Below, one piece after another: positions 1 to 7,843 of a DNA stretch of 64,000 nt; within the stretch, counting starts at the first letter, position 1; each line of letters opens with the position of its first letter. The DNA is taken from assembly GCF_029688845.1 (NCBI RefSeq), contig NZ_JARUKW010000015.1, positions 1 to 64,000 of the forward strand, written 5' to 3'. Position numbers and translations under genes: made by a program. The notes beneath the pieces were generated by a model. The model ran no database searches. It had not been told where the DNA came from and saw nothing but the letters and a program-made list of their open reading frames with translations. Origin of the DNA: Natronococcus sp. A-GB1 (GTDB taxonomy: Archaea > Halobacteriota > Halobacteria > Halobacteriales > Natrialbaceae).

Positions 1-408
1 TGTTACGATCCACCAAGCGACGATCTCGGCAATGGTCGCGTAGTTGAGTGTGCCTGTCGCCAGACCGAGGCCAGCTATCGCTCCAACGGTTGTCATTGAC
101 GTTGGAACAGGAACCCCGAAGATATTGGCGATGAGAATGCCCAGTCCAATGAAAAAGAGGACGGCGACACCTGCGGAGAGCGTGAGATCAATCGTGATGA
201 TCCCTTCGCTCAACGTGTCCATCACGTTCCGTCCGACAGTCCACCCACCGAGAAAGACGAAAAACGTCATGAGGGCCGCCGCCGTCGTCTTTTTGACGAT
301 TCCAGCACCGACAGGTGGCCCCCACGCGATCCCAGTAGATGAGCCACCAATATTGAACCCAACAAAGATAGACGCAACAATCCCAATTGCGAGTAGGGTT
401 TCTACCAT
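1..408 (-). CDS. PiT/PHO4-family inorganic phosphate transporter, N-terminal part (runs off window)
   Basis: Reading the minus strand from the ATG at 408 gives 136 residues with no stop before the window edge. The product is a polytopic membrane protein with Gly-rich helices. The N-terminal GFNIGGSSTG stretch matches the signature loop of sodium- or proton-coupled phosphate permeases (family form G-x-N-D/G-x-x-x), and the later GVPVPTSMTTVGAIAG stretch matches its inverted repeat. This family imports orthophosphate across the cytoplasmic membrane. Only the first half of the protein is present, so substrate and completeness cannot be judged. It is divergent from the replication gene downstream. 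Confidence 0.75.
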   Translation of the reverse strand, partial: MVETLLAIGIVASIFVGFNIGGSSTGIAWGPPVGAGIVKKTTAAALMTFFVFLGGWTVGRNVMDTLSEGIITIDLTLSAGVAVLFFIGLGILIANIFGVPVPTSMTTVGAIAGLGLATGTLNYATIAEIVAWWIVT

Positions 409-738
409 TGATAGATAATAATTGTGCCGTAGTGAAATAACTACCGTAGCAGACGGATAAGTTATACAGCACACACAGGACTGTTGTAGGCATCCGTCAG
501 ATTTGGCTTCTATCAGGCTGTCCAGCCTAGAAGAAAACCTGAAACCGAGAACGGTTCAGGGAGGCTGAGTTCACAATACACGCACCAATTTACCACTCTG
601 AGCCACCATCGTTCAGGAGGCCAAGATTCGAATCCTCACATACCCATCACGCGGTCTGTTACTTTGGAACCAATAATTCGGAAATTCGGAAATGACACAC
701 TTCCACTTATTACGCACAAGAACTGTGTCGACGCATCC
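409..738. promoter_or_regulatory. Divergent intergenic region between PiT gene and orc1
   Basis: This 330-base AT-richer spacer separates the phosphate transporter (minus) from the Orc1/Cdc6 gene (plus) and contains no credible gene. Its notable content is the tandem octamer ATTCGGAA at 676-691, followed by ACACAC and an AT-rich CTTATTA stretch at about 705-711 that could serve as the TATA element of orc1. Confidence 0.5.
676..694 (+). promoter_or_regulatory. Tandem ATTCGGAA element before orc1 (shared upstream site, copy 1)
   Basis: ATTCGGAA occurs twice in tandem (676-683, 684-691). Positions 682-694 align with the 13-bp palindrome GATTTCGGAAATC found upstream of two other genes in this region, and the distance to the start codon is the same: 57 to 45 nt before the ATG at 739. 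CAC follows in all three copies. It could be a regulator site or an origin-type box; the sequence alone does not decide. Confidence 0.55.
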
Positions 739-1746
739 ATGATTACGGACGCTCGGGTTCTCCAACCCGAATTCATCCCGACCGAGGTCAAGCACCGCGA
801 CGCAGAACTCAATACGCTTTCAGCTGCGCTCAACCCGATAACACACGGAGACAATCCAGATACCGCGTTCCTATTCGGTCCATCTGGTGTTGGGAAAACC
901 TGCCTCGCCAAATTCCTCGTCGAGCAACTCCGCGAAACCGTCGTTGATCTGAACTACCAGTACGTGAACTGCTGGGAAGACTACAGCCGCTTCAAAACAC
1001 TGTACCGAATCCTCGACGGCATCAACCACACGTTCGACGTTCACCGGCAATCAACACCGAAAGACGTCCTATTAGAGCGCCTTCGGGAATACGATGGGTC
1101 GCCGTATATCGTGATTCTCGATGAAGTAGACCAACTCGAAGACAAACAGCTCCTGTACGAGTTGTACCGGATTCGTGGACTCACCATGATCCTAATCGCC
1201 AACAGCGAGCAGGATCTCTTCGCATCGTTAGATAACCGGTTGAATAGTCGCTTCCAGGTCTGTACACGAGCCAGGTTCAATCCATACGGGAATGACGCTC
1301 TTGTCGCTATCCTCCGTGATCGTGTTCGCTGGGGCCTCAAATCCGATGTCGTTTGTCCGGATGAACTACGACTCATCGCGGATATGGCAGCCGGTGACGC
1401 TCGTGCGGCAATCGGGATTCTTCGAAAAGCAGTACAGACAGCCAACCAGTCCGGTTACAATGAGGTTTCGTCAGAGGTAATTCGAGGTGTGGTTCCGGAA
1501 GCGAAAGCAGAGATCGAACAACGGTCGCTCGACAAACTGACCGATCACCAGCGTGTGCTGTACGATACGATTCTGGACTACGGCGAGATCGCTCCCAGTA
1601 CGCTGTTTGAGATTTACAGTGAGGTGGTCGAGAACCCAAAAACGCAGCGTATGGTGCGGAACTACCTCACAAAGCTAGAGCACTACAATTTGATCATCTC
1701 AAAGGGAAGTACGAAGGGGCGAACATATCATCCGTATTCTCCGTGA
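739..1746 (+). CDS. orc1: Orc1/Cdc6-family replication initiation AAA+ ATPase
   Basis: A 335-residue AAA+ protein that marks replication origins in archaea and helps load the MCM helicase. The Walker A GPSGVGKT is at residues 47-54, Walker B VILDEVD at about 125-131, a sensor-1 LIANSE at about 152-157, and an R-containing DNRLNSRF follows. The C-terminal third has the winged-helix character used for origin DNA binding. I chose the ATG at 739 because MITDARVLQPEF is the typical haloarchaeal Orc start; the TTG at 664 would add an atypical leader containing the upstream repeat. At 335 residues it is at the short end of the family, as in plasmid- or element-borne paralogues. Lower GC than the chromosome to the right suggests acquisition. 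The next gene is a Cas4-like nuclease on the same strand. Confidence 0.92.
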   Translation: MITDARVLQPEFIPTEVKHRDAELNTLSAALNPITHGDNPDTAFLFGPSGVGKTCLAKFLVEQLRETVVDLNYQYVNCWEDYSRFKTLYRILDGINHTFDVHRQSTPKDVLLERLREYDGSPYIVILDEVDQLEDKQLLYELYRIRGLTMILIANSEQDLFASLDNRLNSRFQVCTRARFNPYGNDALVAILRDRVRWGLKSDVVCPDELRLIADMAAGDARAAIGILRKAVQTANQSGYNEVSSEVIRGVVPEAKAEIEQRSLDKLTDHQRVLYDTILDYGEIAPSTLFEIYSEVVENPKTQRMVRNYLTKLEHYNLIISKGSTKGRTYHPYSP

Positions 1747-1764
1747 TTATCACTATCTGTCTAT

Positions 1765-1777
1765 GATTTCGGAAATC
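1765..1777 (+). promoter_or_regulatory. 13-bp palindrome GATTTCGGAAATC before the Cas4-like gene (copy 2)
   Basis: Perfect inverted repeat GATTTC-G-GAAATC followed by ACAC. It lies 57 to 45 nt before the chosen ATG (1822), the same spacing as the copies before orc1 and before the first transposase-like gene. Confidence 0.65.
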
Positions 1778-1821
1778 ACACGCGCTTGCCCATTACCATA
1801 GAATCTCTTTATCAGTACGCT

Positions 1822-2964
1822 ATGAGCGATGAACCAATCCCTGACTCCCCTCCCGGAGTGGTCGTATCGTCAGTAATCGAACGAGGGCCTGAAGACCTCG
1901 TTCGGAAGCACTTGGTGGATGCAATCTCGAATCAAAGTTTCAACGAGTGGTATCAAGAGCAACAGTTCACCCAGAATATCTTGGAAGGGCGACCGTATTT
2001 CAACGGTGCGTCGCCACCGCCTGAACCCGAGCGTCACTCCCCGAGTAAACTTCTCCAGTGCCACCGGAAGGTCAGTTACTACAAGGAGAACGCTCCTAAG
2101 GAGGGTGACTCGCCGCAGGGTTTGTTCTGGGTTGGGACAAGATTCGAGGAAGACATTGTCGTGCCGTACTTGCTTGAGTCGGCTACGACCGATGACACGT
2201 ACGTGCAGAATTCGATGTGGATTGACACTACAATCGAAACTGAGGAGGACTCCGTCCAGGTGAGAGGGGTTACTGATCCGGTGATCGTTGATGCTGAGGG
2301 TGAACCGCTTCTGGTGACGGAGATTAAAACGACGTCATCGTTAGAGTACCTGTCTGGGCCGAAACCCCATCACAAAGCCCAACTCCACGCGTACCTGTAC
2401 GCGCTGAATGAAAAGCACGACCGCTCGATTCAAGACGGATTGCTGCTCTACGGTGCTCGGGACACGTTAGATATCAAAGCGTATCACGTCCCGTTCGATG
2501 AAACGTTCTGGAATGAAGGGGTCGTAGCATGGATGCGTTCGCAAACCGCTTACCGTGAGAATGGTGAGCTCCCACCAGCTAAGCCGGTGTTTGACTGGGA
2601 GTGCAGTACCTGCCCATTCCAAGGTCGATGCGGTGAAGGTGACGCCCCGTATCAAGACGTTGGGTACACCGGGTTGCTTCCTGGTTTAGCGGAGTATCGA
2701 AAACAGCAGTTGACCGAGTACTTCGATGCCTACCCCTCCGCGAAACTCACTCCGACCCTCGCCCGCAAGTACCCTTCACTGATCGATGAGCAAGGCGTCT
2801 ACGAATGGCGGTGTACAGCTTGCGCGTCAACATACGCGTGGGATGAGCTCGAAGAAAAAGACGATCCTTCAGAACTCCCGCTCTGTGCTGGCTGCGCCGA
2901 AAACGGTGAGTTGACCACGCTCACGGTTCCTACCCCAGAAAATCAACTCACTGATTATCGGTAG
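1822..2964 (+). CDS. Cas4/RecB-like PD-(D/E)XK nuclease with [Fe-S] cysteines and extra C-terminal zinc ribbon
   Basis: A 380-residue protein with the nuclease core of the Cas4/Dna2 group. There is a Cys at residue 80 (KLLQCHRK), the catalytic GVTDPVIVD Asp at 152, the EIK triad piece at 167-169, the QLHAYLYAL QxxxY-type helix at 187-191, and a CxxCx5C cluster at 261-270. C80 plus these three would ligate a 4Fe-4S cluster. Family members are single-strand exonucleases. Residues 331-358 add CxxC...CxxC, a zinc ribbon not usual in compact Cas4 proteins. No cas genes or CRISPR array are nearby, so a role in replication, recombination or mobility of this element fits better than spacer acquisition. 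The ATG at 1822 is preferred over TTG 1786 because of the spacing to the palindrome at 1765. Confidence 0.82.
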   Translation: MSDEPIPDSPPGVVVSSVIERGPEDLVRKHLVDAISNQSFNEWYQEQQFTQNILEGRPYFNGASPPPEPERHSPSKLLQCHRKVSYYKENAPKEGDSPQGLFWVGTRFEEDIVVPYLLESATTDDTYVQNSMWIDTTIETEEDSVQVRGVTDPVIVDAEGEPLLVTEIKTTSSLEYLSGPKPHHKAQLHAYLYALNEKHDRSIQDGLLLYGARDTLDIKAYHVPFDETFWNEGVVAWMRSQTAYRENGELPPAKPVFDWECSTCPFQGRCGEGDAPYQDVGYTGLLPGLAEYRKQQLTEYFDAYPSAKLTPTLARKYPSLIDEQGVYEWRCTACASTYAWDELEEKDDPSELPLCAGCAENGELTTLTVPTPENQLTDYR

Positions 2965-3020
2965 CTGACTTCGCGGATTCGGCTGAGATCTCAATGAATA
3001 AAAGCGCAACTGCTTTACCC

Positions 3021-3046
3021 TACAATCGACTACAACCGCTTACAAA
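3021..3046 (+). promoter_or_regulatory. Three helically phased TACAA repeats at the toxin-antitoxin promoter
   Basis: TACAA starts at 3021, 3031 and 3041, a strict 10-nt period, ending just before the antitoxin ATG at 3049. A TATA-like AATAAAAG stands at about 2997-3004, so the repeats overlap the expected transcription start. This is the position of an autorepressor operator read from one face of the helix. Confidence 0.55.
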
Positions 3047-3048
3047 CA

Positions 3049-3453
3049 ATGCCGATCCATCTTGACACGCACGATTCTGGCATCGACCTGACGCCGGGAA
3101 CGACGAAATCCGACATCGTAGCGTTTCTCTACAAGAATCCCGAATACGGATACAAACCTTCTGAGGTCAGAGACCACCTCGACATCCCCGACGGCACCGC
3201 TACGACTACTCTTAAACGTCTTCACGAGGACGGGCATATCGGGAAAACCGAAGACAGTTACTACCACGCTTTGGATCGAGAGGACCTTCGCCGGTATGTT
3301 GCTAGTCTCGACCAACTCAACCGAATGTTTAGCCACTCGCCCCGAGAAAGTCCCCACCCCCGTTCTGATGTAGAGGGTACCGCCTCAGACGGGATTAATG
3401 ACGCTGAGATTGAAGCCGAGATCGCAGAATTAGAGGCAGAGCTTGAGAAATGA
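3049..3453 (+). CDS. Winged-helix DNA-binding protein, probable antitoxin
   Basis: This 134-residue protein has a clear winged-helix: KSDIVAFLYKNPEYGY, a helix-turn-helix around PSEVRDHLDIPDGTATTTLKRL, then a GHIGKTEDSYYHAL wing, at about residues 20-75. The C-terminus ends in a Glu-rich helix (IEAEIAELEAELEK) suited to dimerisation or toxin neutralisation. The stop codon overlaps the next ATG (ATGA at 3450-3453), so the pair is translationally coupled. The neighbour is MazF/PemK-like, making this the likely antitoxin and autorepressor; the phased TACAA repeats in front of it support that. Antitoxin function is inferred from context, not from a recognised antitoxin family. Confidence 0.75.
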   Translation: MPIHLDTHDSGIDLTPGTTKSDIVAFLYKNPEYGYKPSEVRDHLDIPDGTATTTLKRLHEDGHIGKTEDSYYHALDREDLRRYVASLDQLNRMFSHSPRESPHPRSDVEGTASDGINDAEIEAEIAELEAELEK

Positions 3454-3794
3454 CGAAATTTCCTACGGGGACAGTCACTTGGGCAAATGATCCAACAAAT
3501 GCACACGATGATCGCCCTGTCATCGTTCTCTCTCACGAAAACCGTCCGTTCAACTCGGTGGAGTGTACCGTGATGTGTGTTGGTACTGGCGCAAAGAACT
3601 ACGACCACTACGCGCCTGAGTTGAAAGACGAACACCTCTCGGGTATTTCCTTCAACAACAAAACATACCTGATGCCGTGGGCATTGTATACGATTCCTCC
3701 AGGCGCTATTCGGACAGGCAAGGCAAGCGGCGAGCTCACTGAGACTGGCGAGAATCTCGTGAAGAAGGGCCTACTCAGCCTTTTCAGCGCTTGA
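3450..3794 (+). CDS. MazF/PemK-like toxin of a type II toxin-antitoxin pair
   Basis: At 114 residues the length is typical for the MazF/PemK/CcdB fold. The N-terminus FPTGTVTWANDP...DDRPVIVLSHENRPFNSVECTVM has the G-x-V-x-W...RPVxVLS pattern of these small ribonuclease toxins, in which the strand ends in the R-P-V motif. The C-terminus KTYLMPWALYTIPPGAI corresponds to the usual S/T-x-x-x-x-x-L strand region. MazF-type enzymes cut mRNA at short sites. Its start codon overlaps the stop of the winged-helix gene, the standard antitoxin-first order. Such pairs stabilise plasmids and islands, consistent with the replication and transposition genes around it. RNase activity is inferred. Confidence 0.75.
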   Translation: MTKFPTGTVTWANDPTNAHDDRPVIVLSHENRPFNSVECTVMCVGTGAKNYDHYAPELKDEHLSGISFNNKTYLMPWALYTIPPGAIRTGKASGELTETGENLVKKGLLSLFSA

Positions 3795-3894
3795 GGGGTA
3801 AGACGCCCTACTGCTATTGATCAGCAGAGACACTCTGTTCAAAAGTCCAACATTCTCTAAGTGGAAGTCTCACTGGCCACAACAAACGTACTGT

Positions 3895-4374
3895 TCAATC
3901 CTTCTCCATGAATTCTGAGTAGTCACCATCCACTTCAGCAGGTTCCGTCACGTCTTCACCGTATTTGTCACGTATTGAATGCTCGTCTTCTGCTCGGGCG
4001 ATTTCGTCTTCGTTATCCTCGATCCAGACGCGGAGGTTTTCTCTACCCTCCACGAGTTTCTGTTCAGCTTCGCGGAGTTGTTTGTACGCGTACGTAACTT
4101 CGAACTCGTCCATCTTCTCCAGGACGAGTTCACCACGGTCGGTAATCATGTACTCGTGATGAATTGAGCGCTGATCGAGGTCGTACTCGTCTTCCCCGAT
4201 TCGTGTTGTGATGAGCCCGAAGTCTCGTCCTTCTTCCAATCGAGTGGTGAGCGTTGAGGGGCTGACGCCGACCAGGTCTTTCAATTCGTTAAATCGTCTG
4301 CTTTCATACTTGAGGTGAACCAGCAGTCCGATTGCGCCACTCATCTCTAAGTACCCGCTGATTTGCTTAACCAT
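3895..4374 (-). CDS. Winged-helix transcriptional regulator
   Basis: A 159-residue minus-strand protein. The first ~75 residues form a winged helix of the HxlR/PadR type: ISGYLEMSGAIGLLVHL, the recognition region NELKDLVGVSPSTLTTRLEEG, and a wing ending DQRSIHHEYMITDRGELVL. A long charged coiled-coil-like C-terminus with E/K/R repeats (residues ~95-130) probably dimerises. It is divergent from the transposase-like genes; two palindromes lie in the intervening 220 bases, one directly before its own start, so autoregulation plus control of the divergent genes is likely. The ligand is unknown. Confidence 0.8.
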   Translation of the reverse strand: MVKQISGYLEMSGAIGLLVHLKYESRRFNELKDLVGVSPSTLTTRLEEGRDFGLITTRIGEDEYDLDQRSIHHEYMITDRGELVLEKMDEFEVTYAYKQLREAEQKLVEGRENLRVWIEDNEDEIARAEDEHSIRDKYGEDVTEPAEVDGDYSEFMEKD

Positions 4375-4398
4375 CTATTCGAGTTGTGGGAAGCTCAC

Positions 4399-4412
4399 TA
4401 CAAATAGTTGTA
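4399..4412. promoter_or_regulatory. Palindrome TACAA-ATAG-TTGTA before the winged-helix regulator
   Basis: Perfect 5-bp inverted repeat 25-38 nt upstream of the regulator start (4374, minus strand), in the place where its TATA element would sit. A natural autorepression operator; it shares the TACAA half-site with the toxin-antitoxin promoter. Confidence 0.5.
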
Positions 4413-4442
4413 CTGCGATATTGTTTGGACTGAACTTCGTAG

Positions 4443-4463
4443 TGTAGTACTGTATGTACTACA
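4443..4463. promoter_or_regulatory. Palindrome TGTAGTAC-TGTAT-GTACTACA between divergent genes
   Basis: Perfect 8-bp arms with a 5-nt spacer in the AT-rich divergent region between the winged-helix regulator and the first transposase-like gene. The size is right for a dimeric winged-helix protein. A further half-site, CAGTAG, follows at about 4472. Confidence 0.6.
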
Positions 4464-4539
4464 TTTTAATGCAGTAGTTTAATCTCTGTAATTTATATGT
4501 GTCTGCGGTTCTAACAGCCTTACTGGTGTGTTTCGAACC

Positions 4540-4552
4540 GATTTCGGAAATC
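4540..4552 (+). promoter_or_regulatory. 13-bp palindrome GATTTCGGAAATC before the first transposase-like gene (copy 3)
   Basis: Identical to the palindrome at 1765-1777 and placed 57 to 45 nt before the ATG at 4597, exactly the same spacing. GCAC follows, preserving the CAC seen after the other copies. A TATA-like TTAAAAT at about 4571-4577 lies between the site and the start codon. Confidence 0.65.
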
Positions 4553-4596
4553 GCACCCACGAACCCAAGGTTAAAATCGAAGTAAATCAGATACAG

Positions 4597-5733
4597 ATGA
4601 AACCGACAACCCACTCAAACCACGACCGAAACACCATTCAGCGTGTAGTTGAACTGACCTGCGAACGGATTTTCAGTGAGAACACTGAACGACAGACTCC
4701 GAACGTAGAAACACTTCGTGAGAAACTCGCAGCCAAAAAGTCAGCATCTAACACCGACTCCACCGAGTCATTCCCAGAAAAAGTCGAAGGGCAGCGTTAT
4801 TCGAATGCTGACCAACTCACCTCCTCCGTTGATACCCTCGTTGATTCACTGCACGCGTACGACACGTACGCGGGATCAATCACAGTCGCAATCGACATCA
4901 CCCGGCTCGATCCAGATTACTGGCTCGAAGCCACTACCGCGCCAGGAGACGCAAGCGAGGTGGAAGTCACGCCGACTCCCACACCGCGCTTCGCTACGAT
5001 CACCACTGTCAACACGCCTGTCCCAGTTGTCCTTGCCGTCGAACCGCTGAGCAAGCCAGGCGACGAAACCCAATCTGAGCCGCGAACGTACGCGGAGATC
5101 GTCCGGACGCTCATCGAGCAAGCCAAAGAACACGTTGAGATCGACACGCTCCTGGCATCCCGAGCGTTTCACGCTGGAAACGTCATCGCAGAATTCGAGC
5201 GGCAAAACGTTGCGTACATCATCTTCTCACGACTCACCACGCGAGACCGTGAACGAATCTCAACGATCAAAACCCGTGATGACGCTACACATGCTGTTGA
5301 ACACGATGTCGATGTGTTCGTGGACGGCACGCCGACATGCACCACGAACCTGGTGTACGTCCCCGAAGACTCGGCATCTGATGGGTACGTTGGATTCGTA
5401 ACGAATATCGACGTGTCGAAGTCGGATCTGGAGTCGGATACGGTTCCAGAAACGTATAAAAAACGGTGGATCGCCAACGTTCACAACCGCCTCCTCCGGA
5501 CAAGACTCCACACGAAAGGTGTGTCTCAACTGGAGTTGACACGCGCTGATTACGAGCGTGTAGCAACTGAGGTGAACGCCTACTCGCTGACGAACCACCT
5601 CCTGAGAGAGTCTACCGGGCATACGAGCGAGCAGTTCCCGCTCCCGTTCGACCAGTTCCTTCACTTACTCCACCAGAAGCGATGGGGGGTCACCAGCGGC
5701 ACATCCCCAACTGGAAATCACGAATCGAGGTAA
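4597..5733 (+). CDS. Catalytically degenerate DDE transposase-like protein (paralogue of the next gene)
   Basis: This 378-residue protein aligns along its length with the core of the downstream transposase (5862-7607). The first catalytic Asp is kept (VAIDITRLD, D100). The second motif LLDRGFY is LASRAFH here, placing Ser188 at the Asp position, and the third motif RRRWDIENQ is KKRWIANVH, placing Asn294 at the Glu. Two of three metal-binding residues are therefore gone, while the reading frame and flanking framework (FVTN, YKKRW) are intact. This suggests a retained non-catalytic subunit or regulator rather than a decaying copy. ATG 4597 is chosen because a TATA-like element sits about 25 nt upstream; earlier starts would cover the palindrome. 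Confidence 0.7.
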   Translation: MKPTTHSNHDRNTIQRVVELTCERIFSENTERQTPNVETLREKLAAKKSASNTDSTESFPEKVEGQRYSNADQLTSSVDTLVDSLHAYDTYAGSITVAIDITRLDPDYWLEATTAPGDASEVEVTPTPTPRFATITTVNTPVPVVLAVEPLSKPGDETQSEPRTYAEIVRTLIEQAKEHVEIDTLLASRAFHAGNVIAEFERQNVAYIIFSRLTTRDRERISTIKTRDDATHAVEHDVDVFVDGTPTCTTNLVYVPEDSASDGYVGFVTNIDVSKSDLESDTVPETYKKRWIANVHNRLLRTRLHTKGVSQLELTRADYERVATEVNAYSLTNHLLRESTGHTSEQFPLPFDQFLHLLHQKRWGVTSGTSPTGNHESR

Positions 5734-5861
5734 CCCGGCCAGTCACACCCATTTCCGTACCCTGACGCCCATGACGCGCACTCGACTCCAGCTGGCGACC
5801 TTTACTCGCCCCCCGCTCCAGCTGTGCAACCACCTCGTCCACCCCACGTTCGGTGATTTTT
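5734..5861 (+). other. Spacer between the transposase-like genes with imperfect direct repeat
   Basis: 128 bases without a gene. CTCCAGCTG occurs at 5786-5794 and again at 5816-5824, each followed within a few bases by ACC, giving 30-nt spaced imperfect repeats. They could be transposase-binding sites or a promoter element. The higher GC here than in the flanking genes is odd. Confidence 0.35.
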
Positions 5862-7607
5862 ATGGTGCGTGACGATCCCGCAGTCGCTGAAGCCATCGTC
5901 GTGCACGCAGAGACGCTTTGCAAGCGCGAAAACCACCTGTGGGACGTCATCAACAAACTTTCAATACCAGTAGACCTCCTCACCGACCACCGCGACCAGA
6001 GGAAGGTCGATTTCGGAACGGAAGAGATGGTTCGCGCACACCTGTACCGTCTTATTCGCGGGTATTCACAAAGCGAATTCGCAGACCAGTTGAGTGAGCG
6101 CTCCAGTTTAGTGAAAGCCGCAGGATTTCAAATCAAGAAGTTAGAGGACGCCCCGTCTCAGCAGGACCTTTCATACGCGAAATGCAACTTCAGCGACCCG
6201 ACATGGGATATCATTGAAGCCGCTGCCAACGGTATCAGGCGAGAAGTCGTTGAACACGGCATTATTTCAGAAGCACTCGTCCCAACTCCCGCCCCGGACG
6301 ATGGAGACGAGGAAGACACTGAGAAAACGAAACGCGAGTACAAACGCGAGAAAACGCATAAATCAGTGAAGTTGGCCAGGAAACACGCGTTACCAGAATT
6401 CAAGACAGGTCGTGCGTCGAACCGTCAATACGAAGACATCGAGCTCTTAGACCAAGTTGCACGCATCTGCTCGAATAACGGGAGCGCGCATTCTGAAGGC
6501 GAGATTGGCTACCTACTCAACGATGAGTTGACGTGCGACGGGTCAACGCTTCTCCGCGCGCTCAAATTAATCGCCACGCCTGACGATGATGACTCGATGC
6601 AGCTCACCTTGGACTCGGTGTTCGAGGAAAATCGCATGCCGAAGATCGACGTGATCCGTGACGAGGTCATGAAGGCGTTCGACGGGGCGACGGACAACAT
6701 CATCAACTCGATCCGTGGTGATGACCCGTTCGATGATCGGAAAACCATTGCTGCAATCGACATCACTGATGACCCGTTCACCGTAAGTCCGTGGGAAGAC
6801 AGGGACAAGGAGATCCCGAAGCCGAACTACCCTCGAATGGTCAACGGGTACGTCGATGACGATCCGAAGAAACAAGGGTACAAGTACGCCACAATCACGC
6901 TCGTCGGTGACAACGTCCCGATCATACTCGGTGTTGAACCGTACAAGCAGAATTCAAAGTGGGAAGAGGAAGACGCTCCGTCGTATCCGAAAGCCGATCT
7001 CGTCGAGCGGTTACTGGATCGAGCACAGGAATTTGTGGATCTCGATGAGGTGTTGCTTGATCGTGGGTTCTACAGCGAAGATGTGTACGCAGCTATCGAA
7101 GATCGCGGGTTGTTGTACACCACACCCGTTCCGAGGTACACGGACGATTATGAAAACATCGAGAAGATCAAAGCGCACCCCGAGGCGGACATGGCGGTTG
7201 AACCTGACGTTGAATTCTGGAAAGACGGGGAACTCCACCACACGGCACACTTCCTCTATGTGCCAGTTCGGGATGATGATGCTGACGGGAACTACGCGGT
7301 GTTTGTGACGAACCGTGACAGCGTCGATACTCCTGGCGAGATCAGACACGTTGTGAATCAGTATCGACGGCGATGGGATATTGAGAACCAGTACAAGACT
7401 ATCGTGGAGTACCTACCGCGGACGTCTTCAACCGATTACCGAGTTCGACTCACGAATTTCGTTCTGGCAGCGCTGATCTACAACCTCTGGCGGTTGACTG
7501 ACTACCTCATCAAGATCGCCATCGACATGGATGTTCGAGCTCCACCTGTGCTGACCGCGAAGACGTTCGCTACGGTGCTCGGTCAGTTCCTGTTGCGGGT
7601 GGGGTAG
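5862..7607 (+). CDS. DDE transposase, IS4-superfamily/ISH3-like, with long N-terminal domain
   Basis: A 581-residue protein. The catalytic triad is visible: D300 in IAAIDITDDP, D400 in VLLDRGFYSED, E508 in RRRWDIENQYK (the Y-[RK]x3-E-type motif of the IS4/ISH3 group). An inserted beta-rich segment between the second and third motifs fits this fold. The first ~290 residues contain a helix-turn-helix-like region (LIRGYSQSEFADQLSERSSL) and a charged linker, making it considerably longer than usual ISH3 transposases (about 390). It follows a degenerate paralogue on the same strand. ATG 5862 is used; GTG 5853 is possible. No terminal inverted repeats flanking this gene alone were found, so it may move a larger unit. 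Confidence 0.8.
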   Translation: MVRDDPAVAEAIVVHAETLCKRENHLWDVINKLSIPVDLLTDHRDQRKVDFGTEEMVRAHLYRLIRGYSQSEFADQLSERSSLVKAAGFQIKKLEDAPSQQDLSYAKCNFSDPTWDIIEAAANGIRREVVEHGIISEALVPTPAPDDGDEEDTEKTKREYKREKTHKSVKLARKHALPEFKTGRASNRQYEDIELLDQVARICSNNGSAHSEGEIGYLLNDELTCDGSTLLRALKLIATPDDDDSMQLTLDSVFEENRMPKIDVIRDEVMKAFDGATDNIINSIRGDDPFDDRKTIAAIDITDDPFTVSPWEDRDKEIPKPNYPRMVNGYVDDDPKKQGYKYATITLVGDNVPIILGVEPYKQNSKWEEEDAPSYPKADLVERLLDRAQEFVDLDEVLLDRGFYSEDVYAAIEDRGLLYTTPVPRYTDDYENIEKIKAHPEADMAVEPDVEFWKDGELHHTAHFLYVPVRDDDADGNYAVFVTNRDSVDTPGEIRHVVNQYRRRWDIENQYKTIVEYLPRTSSTDYRVRLTNFVLAALIYNLWRLTDYLIKIAIDMDVRAPPVLTAKTFATVLGQFLLRVG

Positions 7608-7729
7608 CGGTCAGCCGTAGTTTTCGGGTTCGAAATTCCTGAGCGGTAGCTGTTTTTCGCCTACTTTTATTTCGCGCTCAATTACCAGATCGATATCATA
7701 CCTTGTGCTTGGTTTGACTGCTTGTTTTC

Positions 7730-7755
7730 TTACAATCCAAATTAGTGGATTGTAA
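7730..7755. repeat. 10-bp perfect inverted repeat at island/chromosome junction
   Basis: TTACAATCCA, a 6-nt spacer AATTAG, then TGGATTGTAA. It lies in an AT-rich stretch just after the transposase gene and before the high-GC chromosomal gene at 7844. It could be a transcription terminator for the transposase operon or part of an element end; no matching copy was seen on the left side of the region. Confidence 0.5.
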
Positions 7756-7843
7756 TTCTCGACCGACTCTCACTCATTTGTAGCCGATCCATATACGAAA
7801 AGTCTGCGCAATCGCTTTCGGCCTCGCCGTCCTGCGCTCGAGC

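Follow-up and report, generated by a model that had tools for sequence, protein, structure and literature searches.

A putative cargo-carrying DDE transposon of haloarchaea that combines an ISH3-like transposase with Orc1/Cdc6 and a replaceable nuclease

What kind of genetic unit would bring together a replication initiator, a Cas4-like nuclease and two DDE proteins at the start of contig NZ_JARUKW010000015.1 (C7) of the haloarchaeon Natronococcus sp. A-GB1 (GCF_029688845.1)? The window, which comprises the 64,000 nucleotides at positions 1-64,000 of this contig, opens with a region that an earlier note, made from the sequence alone, had described as a mobile or self-replicating element of visibly lower G+C content (GC), located at 664-7760. 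The lower GC is real, at 0.49-0.57 across 0.5-7.5 kb compared with 0.62-0.73 over most of the remaining window (approximately 0.67 outside the region), and our comparisons indicate that the region is almost certainly the bulk of one 9.3-kb cargo-carrying DDE transposon of haloarchaea, related to ISH3-like insertion sequences.

The right end was located by two independent comparisons. A BLAST search against plasmids found window positions 679-7806 as a single piece, with 96.2% identity, on a plasmid of Natronorubrum daqingense, and this homology ends at 7806; homology to the congeners begins at or after 7807 in all eight of those compared. Given that the one stops where the other starts, the two agree on a right end at 7806. 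The element is absent from this site in all eight congeners, which thus provide the empty site, and the congener DNA upstream of the lipoate-ligase gene is found in the A-GB1 genome near the end of a second contig, C34, directly before the left end of the element (C34:246488, not within the window). At this junction the flanking DNA ...GGCGCAATC gives way to CAGAGATTCGGCATTTGGAAACCTACAAATG, which mirrors the right end CAGACTTTTCGTATATGGATCGGCTACAAATG. The inverted ends are imperfect and about 36 bp long, and the strain comparison that the earlier note had suggested thereby yielded exact ends together with a 7-bp target-site duplication. The pentamer GTCTG at the left junction was also considered as the target duplication and was ruled out, as it sits inside the right end in both copies.

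The start of the window is a contig break inside the element, and C34:246488-248009 holds the left end, a universal stress protein gene and the rest of the gene for an inorganic phosphate transporter (PiT) that is cut by the break. The end of C34 and the start of C7 overlap by 7 nt (TGTTACG), joining them gives an uninterrupted PiT frame of 440 aa, and in congener G294 the two halves lie side by side. Since the PiT gene continues from C34 into window positions 418-1, the length of the element is approximately 9.3 kb, and the limits given earlier have to be moved at both sides, to 7806 on the right and to C34, beyond the stress protein and phosphate transporter cargo, on the left. In the N. daqingense copy a left end of this kind is found 7.5 kb upstream of orc1, and the cargo consists of potassium and amino-acid transporters.

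Table 1. Features of the element within the window (C7 coordinates).
Feature	Position	Strand	Basis or remark
Cargo: N-terminal part of PiT gene	1..418	-	remainder on C34
Tandem TTCGGAA motif, candidate Orc1-type cis-site	676..692	+	homology start of N. daqingense core (cargo/core junction)
orc1/cdc6, AAA+ with C-terminal winged helix	739..1746 (likely start ATG 739)	+	TIGR02928 E=7e-56
Palindrome GATTTCGGAAATC; contained TTCGGAAAT 54 nt before cas4 start	1765..1777	+
Cas4-like Fe-S nuclease, extra C-terminal zinc ribbon	1822..2964 (likely start ATG 1822)	+	TIGR00372, phrog_1706, alignment, model
MarR-like winged-helix protein, partner of PemK-like protein, optional	3049..3453	+	MarR_2 E=5e-5, below cut-off
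PemK/MazF-like protein, possible toxin, optional	3450..3794	+	PF02452 E=0.005, below cut-off
HxlR-type regulator, divergent from transposase operon	3895..4374	-	PF01638 E=9e-6, above Pfam cut-off
Second GATTTCGGAAATC copy; contained TTCGGAAAT 54 nt before short DDE gene	4540..4552	+
Short companion DDE protein (P0006)	4597..5733	+	first D kept, second D replaced by S, E by N
ISH3-like DDE transposase (P0007), D-D-E intact	5862..7607	+	NF033541 E=3e-23, PF01609 E=5e-8
Right terminal inverted repeat, CAGACTTTTCGTATATGGATCGGCTACAAATGAGTGAGAG	7767..7806	-	N. daqingense/congener boundaries, terminal inverted repeat profile
Target-site duplication CGCAATC, 7 bp	7807..7813	+	second copy adjoins left end on C34

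Relatives of the element were sought in 392 genomes of the order with similarity to Orc1 as the sole criterion, and some 60 neighbourhoods were then inspected; a peptide-pattern scan of the genome contigs, the patterns of which were narrow, gave only four loci. The order Orc1, Cas4, HxlR, DDE recurs across several haloarchaeal families, the outcome the earlier note had looked to such a search for, and its proposal that the genes form one mobile unit stands. An end profile found paired inward ends in the A-GB1 element and in seven other Orc1 elements from several families. The duplications are exact and 7 bp long in genomes G294 (ATCGGCG), G189 (GAACGCA) and G192 (CTGACTT), exact and 6 bp long in G262 (GAAGTT), G253 (GCGACC) and G249 (GAGCTC), and match at six of seven positions in G204 (GACGGT[C/G]), so that among the eight elements, our own included, four have 7 bp, three have 6 bp and one has the 6/7 match. 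The elements with duplications are 5.0-19.2 kb long.

The family core consists of an ISH3-like DDE transposase, whose gene sits at the right end, an HxlR regulator that stands beside the transposase in most relatives and is usually divergent from it, Orc1 and one nuclease, with the cargo being interchangeable. The cargo seen comprises P-type metal ATPases, a Na/Ca exchanger, potassium and amino-acid transporters, a phosphate transporter and the defence system DISARM, and several copies of the element are located on plasmids. No cas1 (casposase) gene was present among the seven window genes scanned or in the inspected open reading frames of relatives bounded by duplications, and the description of the locus as neither a casposon, a prophage nor a plain insertion sequence (IS) is borne out by its identification as a cargo-carrying DDE transposon. 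The 19.2-kb element of G262 (G262:C50:32403-51565; L159, L071) encloses a complete-looking DISARM set, with DrmA, DrmB, DrmC, a DrmE-like protein and a cytosine methylase, inside a transposon bounded by its 6-bp duplication, and is a possible vehicle for DISARM transfer. The hxlR-DDE pair of Halobacterium BOL4-2 (L028) was considered as a minimal IS and rejected, as the end lies farther left and two unknown genes are enclosed.

The initiator gene encodes a genuine Orc1/Cdc6 homologue, as had been proposed: the protein scores 189.6 bits against the TIGR02928 cut-off of 181.3, retains intact Walker A (GPSGVGKT) and Walker B (DEVDQ) motifs, and matches PDB entry 2qby_A at 2e-21; the ratio of nonsynonymous to synonymous substitution (dN/dS) of the gene is 0.10. 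In a tree of Orc1 proteins a supported branch (98/88) separates a side on which a transposase lies within 9 kb in 25 of 30 rows from a side on which this holds for 1 of 37, the latter being mostly paired with a PolB gene (Fisher 2e-12 for clade against transposase association). Several of the five transposase-less exceptions in the element-linked clade are short contigs, and this clade is almost confined to such elements. Searches of viral contigs gave only two remote Orc1 matches, and phage records gave none. About 1 kb downstream of orc1, a related Orc1 group, represented by L097:4842-9124 and some 19 loci like it, has a gene resembling those of family B DNA polymerases (704 aa in L097); these 4.2-kb Orc1-PolB units are 85-87% identical in several genomes, begin some 65 nt ahead of orc1, and could be mobile in their own right.

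The core genes also have a cis-site in common. The likely start codons of orc1, cas4 and the short DDE gene are each preceded, at a distance of 54 nt, by the sequence TTCGGAAAY, in agreement with the claim that a common promoter element links three transcription units. The spacing recurs in other genera: ten loci have the sequence 54 nt ahead of the likely cas4 start, its distance to orc1 is 50-57 nt, and for the short DDE gene it is 54 nt in both the window and the N. daqingense copies. The TTCGGAA double motif at 676 was at one point a candidate for the left terminus of the element; it was ruled out because C34 carries the true inverted end and because the motif also precedes transposase-free orc1 genes. 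Applying the criteria of inverted origin recognition boxes (ORBs) and a G-string (PMC3528665), we found no such origin in the 320 nt before orc1 (419-738), which contain only the tandem TTCGGAA pair and no G4 or C4 run, the rest of the element not having been exhaustively examined for origins; the term self-replicating in the earlier note is thus not upheld by the DNA adjoining orc1. A tRNA-like T-arm fragment (GATTCGAATCC) lies at window positions 622-640, between the phosphate transporter and orc1, where no tRNA was called.

The nuclease was likewise correctly recognized as Cas4-like with an additional zinc ribbon. The protein matches TIGR00372 at E=7e-11, below the curated cut-off, and phrog_1706 at 5e-22, and in 21 Cas4-like sequences the PD-(D/E)XK residues D152, E167, K169 and Q187, the Fe-S cysteines C80, C261, C264 and C270, and the four cysteines of the extra C-terminal zinc ribbon are invariant. 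Its predicted structure, of moderate confidence, has Sulfolobus Cas4 SSO0001 as the best PDB match. Among 26 unique Orc1 loci with a transposase nearby, the nuclease position is occupied by Cas4 in 15 and by a DEDD-type exonuclease that is unrelated to Cas4 (PF13482 at E=8e-5) in nine; none has both, and two have neither.

Two DDE proteins, one of them degenerate, had been noted, and the catalytic residues (Table 1) agree with this. The long protein carries the Y-(2)-R-(3)-E signature, has a dN/dS of 0.07 and scores 82 bits against NF033541, for which the cut-off is 225, placing it below the ISH3 family threshold. The short gene is open in both the window and N. daqingense copies with a dN/dS of 0.34, indicating mild constraint, and a model of its product, of moderate confidence, resembles Tn5 transposase and the Tn5 inhibitor 1b7e, making this pseudo-transposase a candidate inhibitor, a role for which we consider the case evenly balanced. 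A short-plus-long DDE pair recurs in other genera (L082, L074); the short protein in G146 is likewise without the second D and the E, and its counterpart in G088 retains them.

The winged-helix regulator of the earlier note is of the HxlR type. The genes of the supposed toxin-antitoxin pair are also present; the PemK assignment is weak, however, and the pair has no defining role, being absent from most relatives of the element. A similar MarR/PemK pair is found on a Halocatena salina plasmid (L029). When window positions 1822-3794 are compared with L023, synonymous divergence is about 0.02 over cas4-pemK and about 0.17 for the DDE and HxlR genes, and this drop between the two copies suggests mosaic exchange within the element.

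The flanks of the elements point to a specific choice of target. The end profile of a second transposase subgroup was discarded, having mostly caught a motif outside the ends, and thereby revealed a target motif of the form ATAAATC..ATA.CGCTATAT..AAT. A matrix for this motif, trained only on the flanks of that second subgroup, gives hits in seven of the eight elements at 17, 17, 17, 17, 16, 16 and 14 bp from the end, with our own site at 17. Five of these hits (G189, G192, G294, G262 and G249) have p per position of at most 1.7e-5; the window's own site (3e-4) and G204 (1.5e-4) are weaker. The motif is scarce, a matrix score of at least 15 being reached at only 27 positions in 1.63 million, and the 4.5-Mb A-GB1 genome contains only four sites with two or fewer mismatches. 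All of the insertions inspected with their flanks joined are intergenic, our own site being spanned only by an antisense frame. The motif in the form ATAAATCNNATANCGCTATAT is rare, conserved and intergenic, for example at G000:C16:41052, C54:48187, C54:52182 and C55:202777, and sequences like ATCCTCCGAAACTGTG recur outside the ends (flanks at G043:C5, G253:C14 and G189:C2), inverted around the G043 site.

A 2.0-kb relative in G330 has the transposase and no orc1, Cas4 or detected HxlR, and it nevertheless lies 16 bp from the same target motif, with the duplication GAAGTT. Orc1 as the target selector was ruled out by this Orc1-less IS, and the target is thus chosen by the transposase or by a factor of the host.

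Taken together, these data are probably best explained by a cargo-carrying DDE transposon in which an Orc1-plus-nuclease module is in long-lived partnership with the transposase. The DDE transposase would bind the ends, cut and insert, with the transposase or a host protein reading the target motif; HxlR, quite likely a repressor, would hold down transcription, and the shortened pseudo-transposase might dampen transposition in the manner of the Tn5 inhibitor. Orc1 and the nuclease, co-produced by way of the shared upstream site, would come into play once cutting or strand transfer has taken place: Orc1 would recruit the host helicase or replication machinery to the insertion intermediate or to the excised circle, the nuclease would trim ends or flaps, and together they would let large, cargo-laden elements finish transposition. 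That the two serve in the replication or repair of intermediates is the least certain step, which we propose tentatively; it is preferred because Orc1 is a genuine initiator homologue that is unneeded for targeting, because the enzyme found in place of Cas4 is a DEDD exonuclease, and because it is the larger elements that carry the module. That Orc1 and a replaceable nuclease should be obligatory partners of the DDE transposase, in a heteromeric machine independent of Tn7/Mu in origin that couples large-cargo transposition to host replication in archaea, seems unlikely to us.

Several observations weigh against the transposon and its proposed partnership. The two ends of our element lie on two contigs joined by a 7-nt overlap and gene continuity rather than by one read, mobility is inferred from sequence comparison alone, and the N. 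daqingense copy has both ends in flanks without a matching duplication. Two further elements, in G009 and G043, show only 5-bp or imperfect duplications, and both ends are resolved for one of the two transposase subgroups. Transposase-free Orc1-PolB units have this cis-motif ahead of orc1 as well, so that motif and initiator alike may function in ordinary replication, and the G330 IS indicates that Orc1 is dispensable for both transposition and target choice in the family.

One alternative is a machine like that of Tn7 or Mu, in which Orc1 would activate the transposase or select the target, as the AAA+ proteins TnsC and MuB do, and the nuclease would cut the non-transferred strand (TnsA), all three proteins transposing the element jointly. 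In its favour, an AAA+ protein, a nuclease and a DDE transposase are stably linked in elements bounded by duplications, and insertion at a fixed distance beside a motif resembles attTn7. We regard this as improbable: the simple IS that is without Orc1 or nuclease shares the target motif and distance, the nuclease is of the Cas4 or DEDD type and not TnsA, the transposase is IS4/ISH3-like and not TnsB, and DEDD enzymes are typically 3'-5' exonucleases rather than strand-specific end cutters. On the other hand, the element might alternate between transposon and plasmid, with Orc1 replicating an excised circle or plasmid form, a hybrid to which Orc1 as a true initiator homologue, its retention of the motif of Orc1-PolB units and the plasmid-borne copies would be congenial. 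Yet the inverted ORB pair and G-string are missing before orc1 in the window, there are no partition genes, and no free circular form was found among the plasmid or viral records searched, and this proposal also strikes us as doubtful.

The Orc1-nuclease module could instead be a passenger for counter-defence or stability, the nuclease interfering with host defence. Cas4 homologues do occur on many mobile elements and an anti-defence role has been suggested for them (PMC5704561), and one element carries DISARM, but Orc1 and the nuclease stay while the cargo varies, and the core genes have their cis-site in common; this reading, too, seems unlikely to us. Least credible is an accidental composite in which Orc1, Cas4, HxlR and DDE genes piled up in low-GC plasmid-derived islands with no joint function. 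Genes for Orc1 and IS abound on haloarchaeal plasmids, and the presence of transposases close to orc1/cdc6 origins has been noted before, without a defined element (PMC3528665); the set is nonetheless enclosed by shared ends and target-site duplications, its Orc1 clade is tied to the transposase, the two nucleases are mutually exclusive and the motif of the core genes is at fixed spacing, by which this explanation is largely refuted.

The preferred explanation, a transposon with an Orc1-plus-nuclease module, defines the ends, the target sites and the core genes for a group of haloarchaeal transposons, and offers a route by which orc1, solo-Cas4 nucleases, metal resistance and DISARM may move between archaea. 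Given that Cas4 is swapped for an unrelated exonuclease in the same position, a nuclease step in the life cycle becomes a testable claim, and with the fixed-distance motif the specificity of insertion can be put to the test in a tractable host. No earlier description of these elements was found in the open literature, ISfinder and subscription papers being outside the scope, so that novelty is not certain; a survey of Cas4 does not mention haloarchaeal Orc1-transposase loci (PMC5704561).

Our elements resemble Tn7-like ones in combining a DDE transposase, an AAA+ ATPase and a nuclease, in carrying defence cargo, and in inserting a fixed distance away from a motif. The transposase is, however, of the DDE_Tnp_1/ISH3-like and not the rve-type TnsB kind, Orc1/Cdc6 and Cas4 or DEDD enzymes stand in place of Tns proteins (no homologues of TnsA, TnsB, TnsC or TnsD were found), and target choice is independent of Orc1; the comparison is an analogy only. 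Casposons and other Cas4-carrying integrated elements are likewise archaeal and mobile, with inverted ends and a Cas4-type nuclease, whereas the window unit is without cas1, uses a DDE transposase and has no family B polymerase inside. The short DDE protein recalls the Tn5 inhibitor (Inh) as an element-encoded, N-terminally shorter DDE-fold protein without full catalytic capacity, with a structural match to 1b7e, but it is a separate divergent gene with two catalytic residues replaced and not a second start of the same gene. Transporter IS, such as those of the IS231 type of IS4, resemble our elements in having IS-derived ends and passenger genes between the left end and the transposase, and differ from them in that ours have a conserved multi-gene core (HxlR, Orc1 and nuclease) and cargo of up to about 14 kb. 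The closest resemblance is to ISH3, the model of which is the best match of the transposase, with the DDE core, the Y-(2)-R-(3)-E signature and imperfect inverted ends. Published ISH3 elements are 1225-1500 bp long, with ends in CRGT and 4-5-bp duplications (PMC2266710), whereas those described here are 2-19 kb long, with ends in CAGA, CACA or CCCA and 6-7-bp duplications, have transposases of about 580-600 aa that score under the model cut-off, and contain HxlR, Orc1, a nuclease and cargo in addition. In family score, size, ends and duplications they differ from the ISH3 family, which, as judged by the transposase, is their nearest kin.

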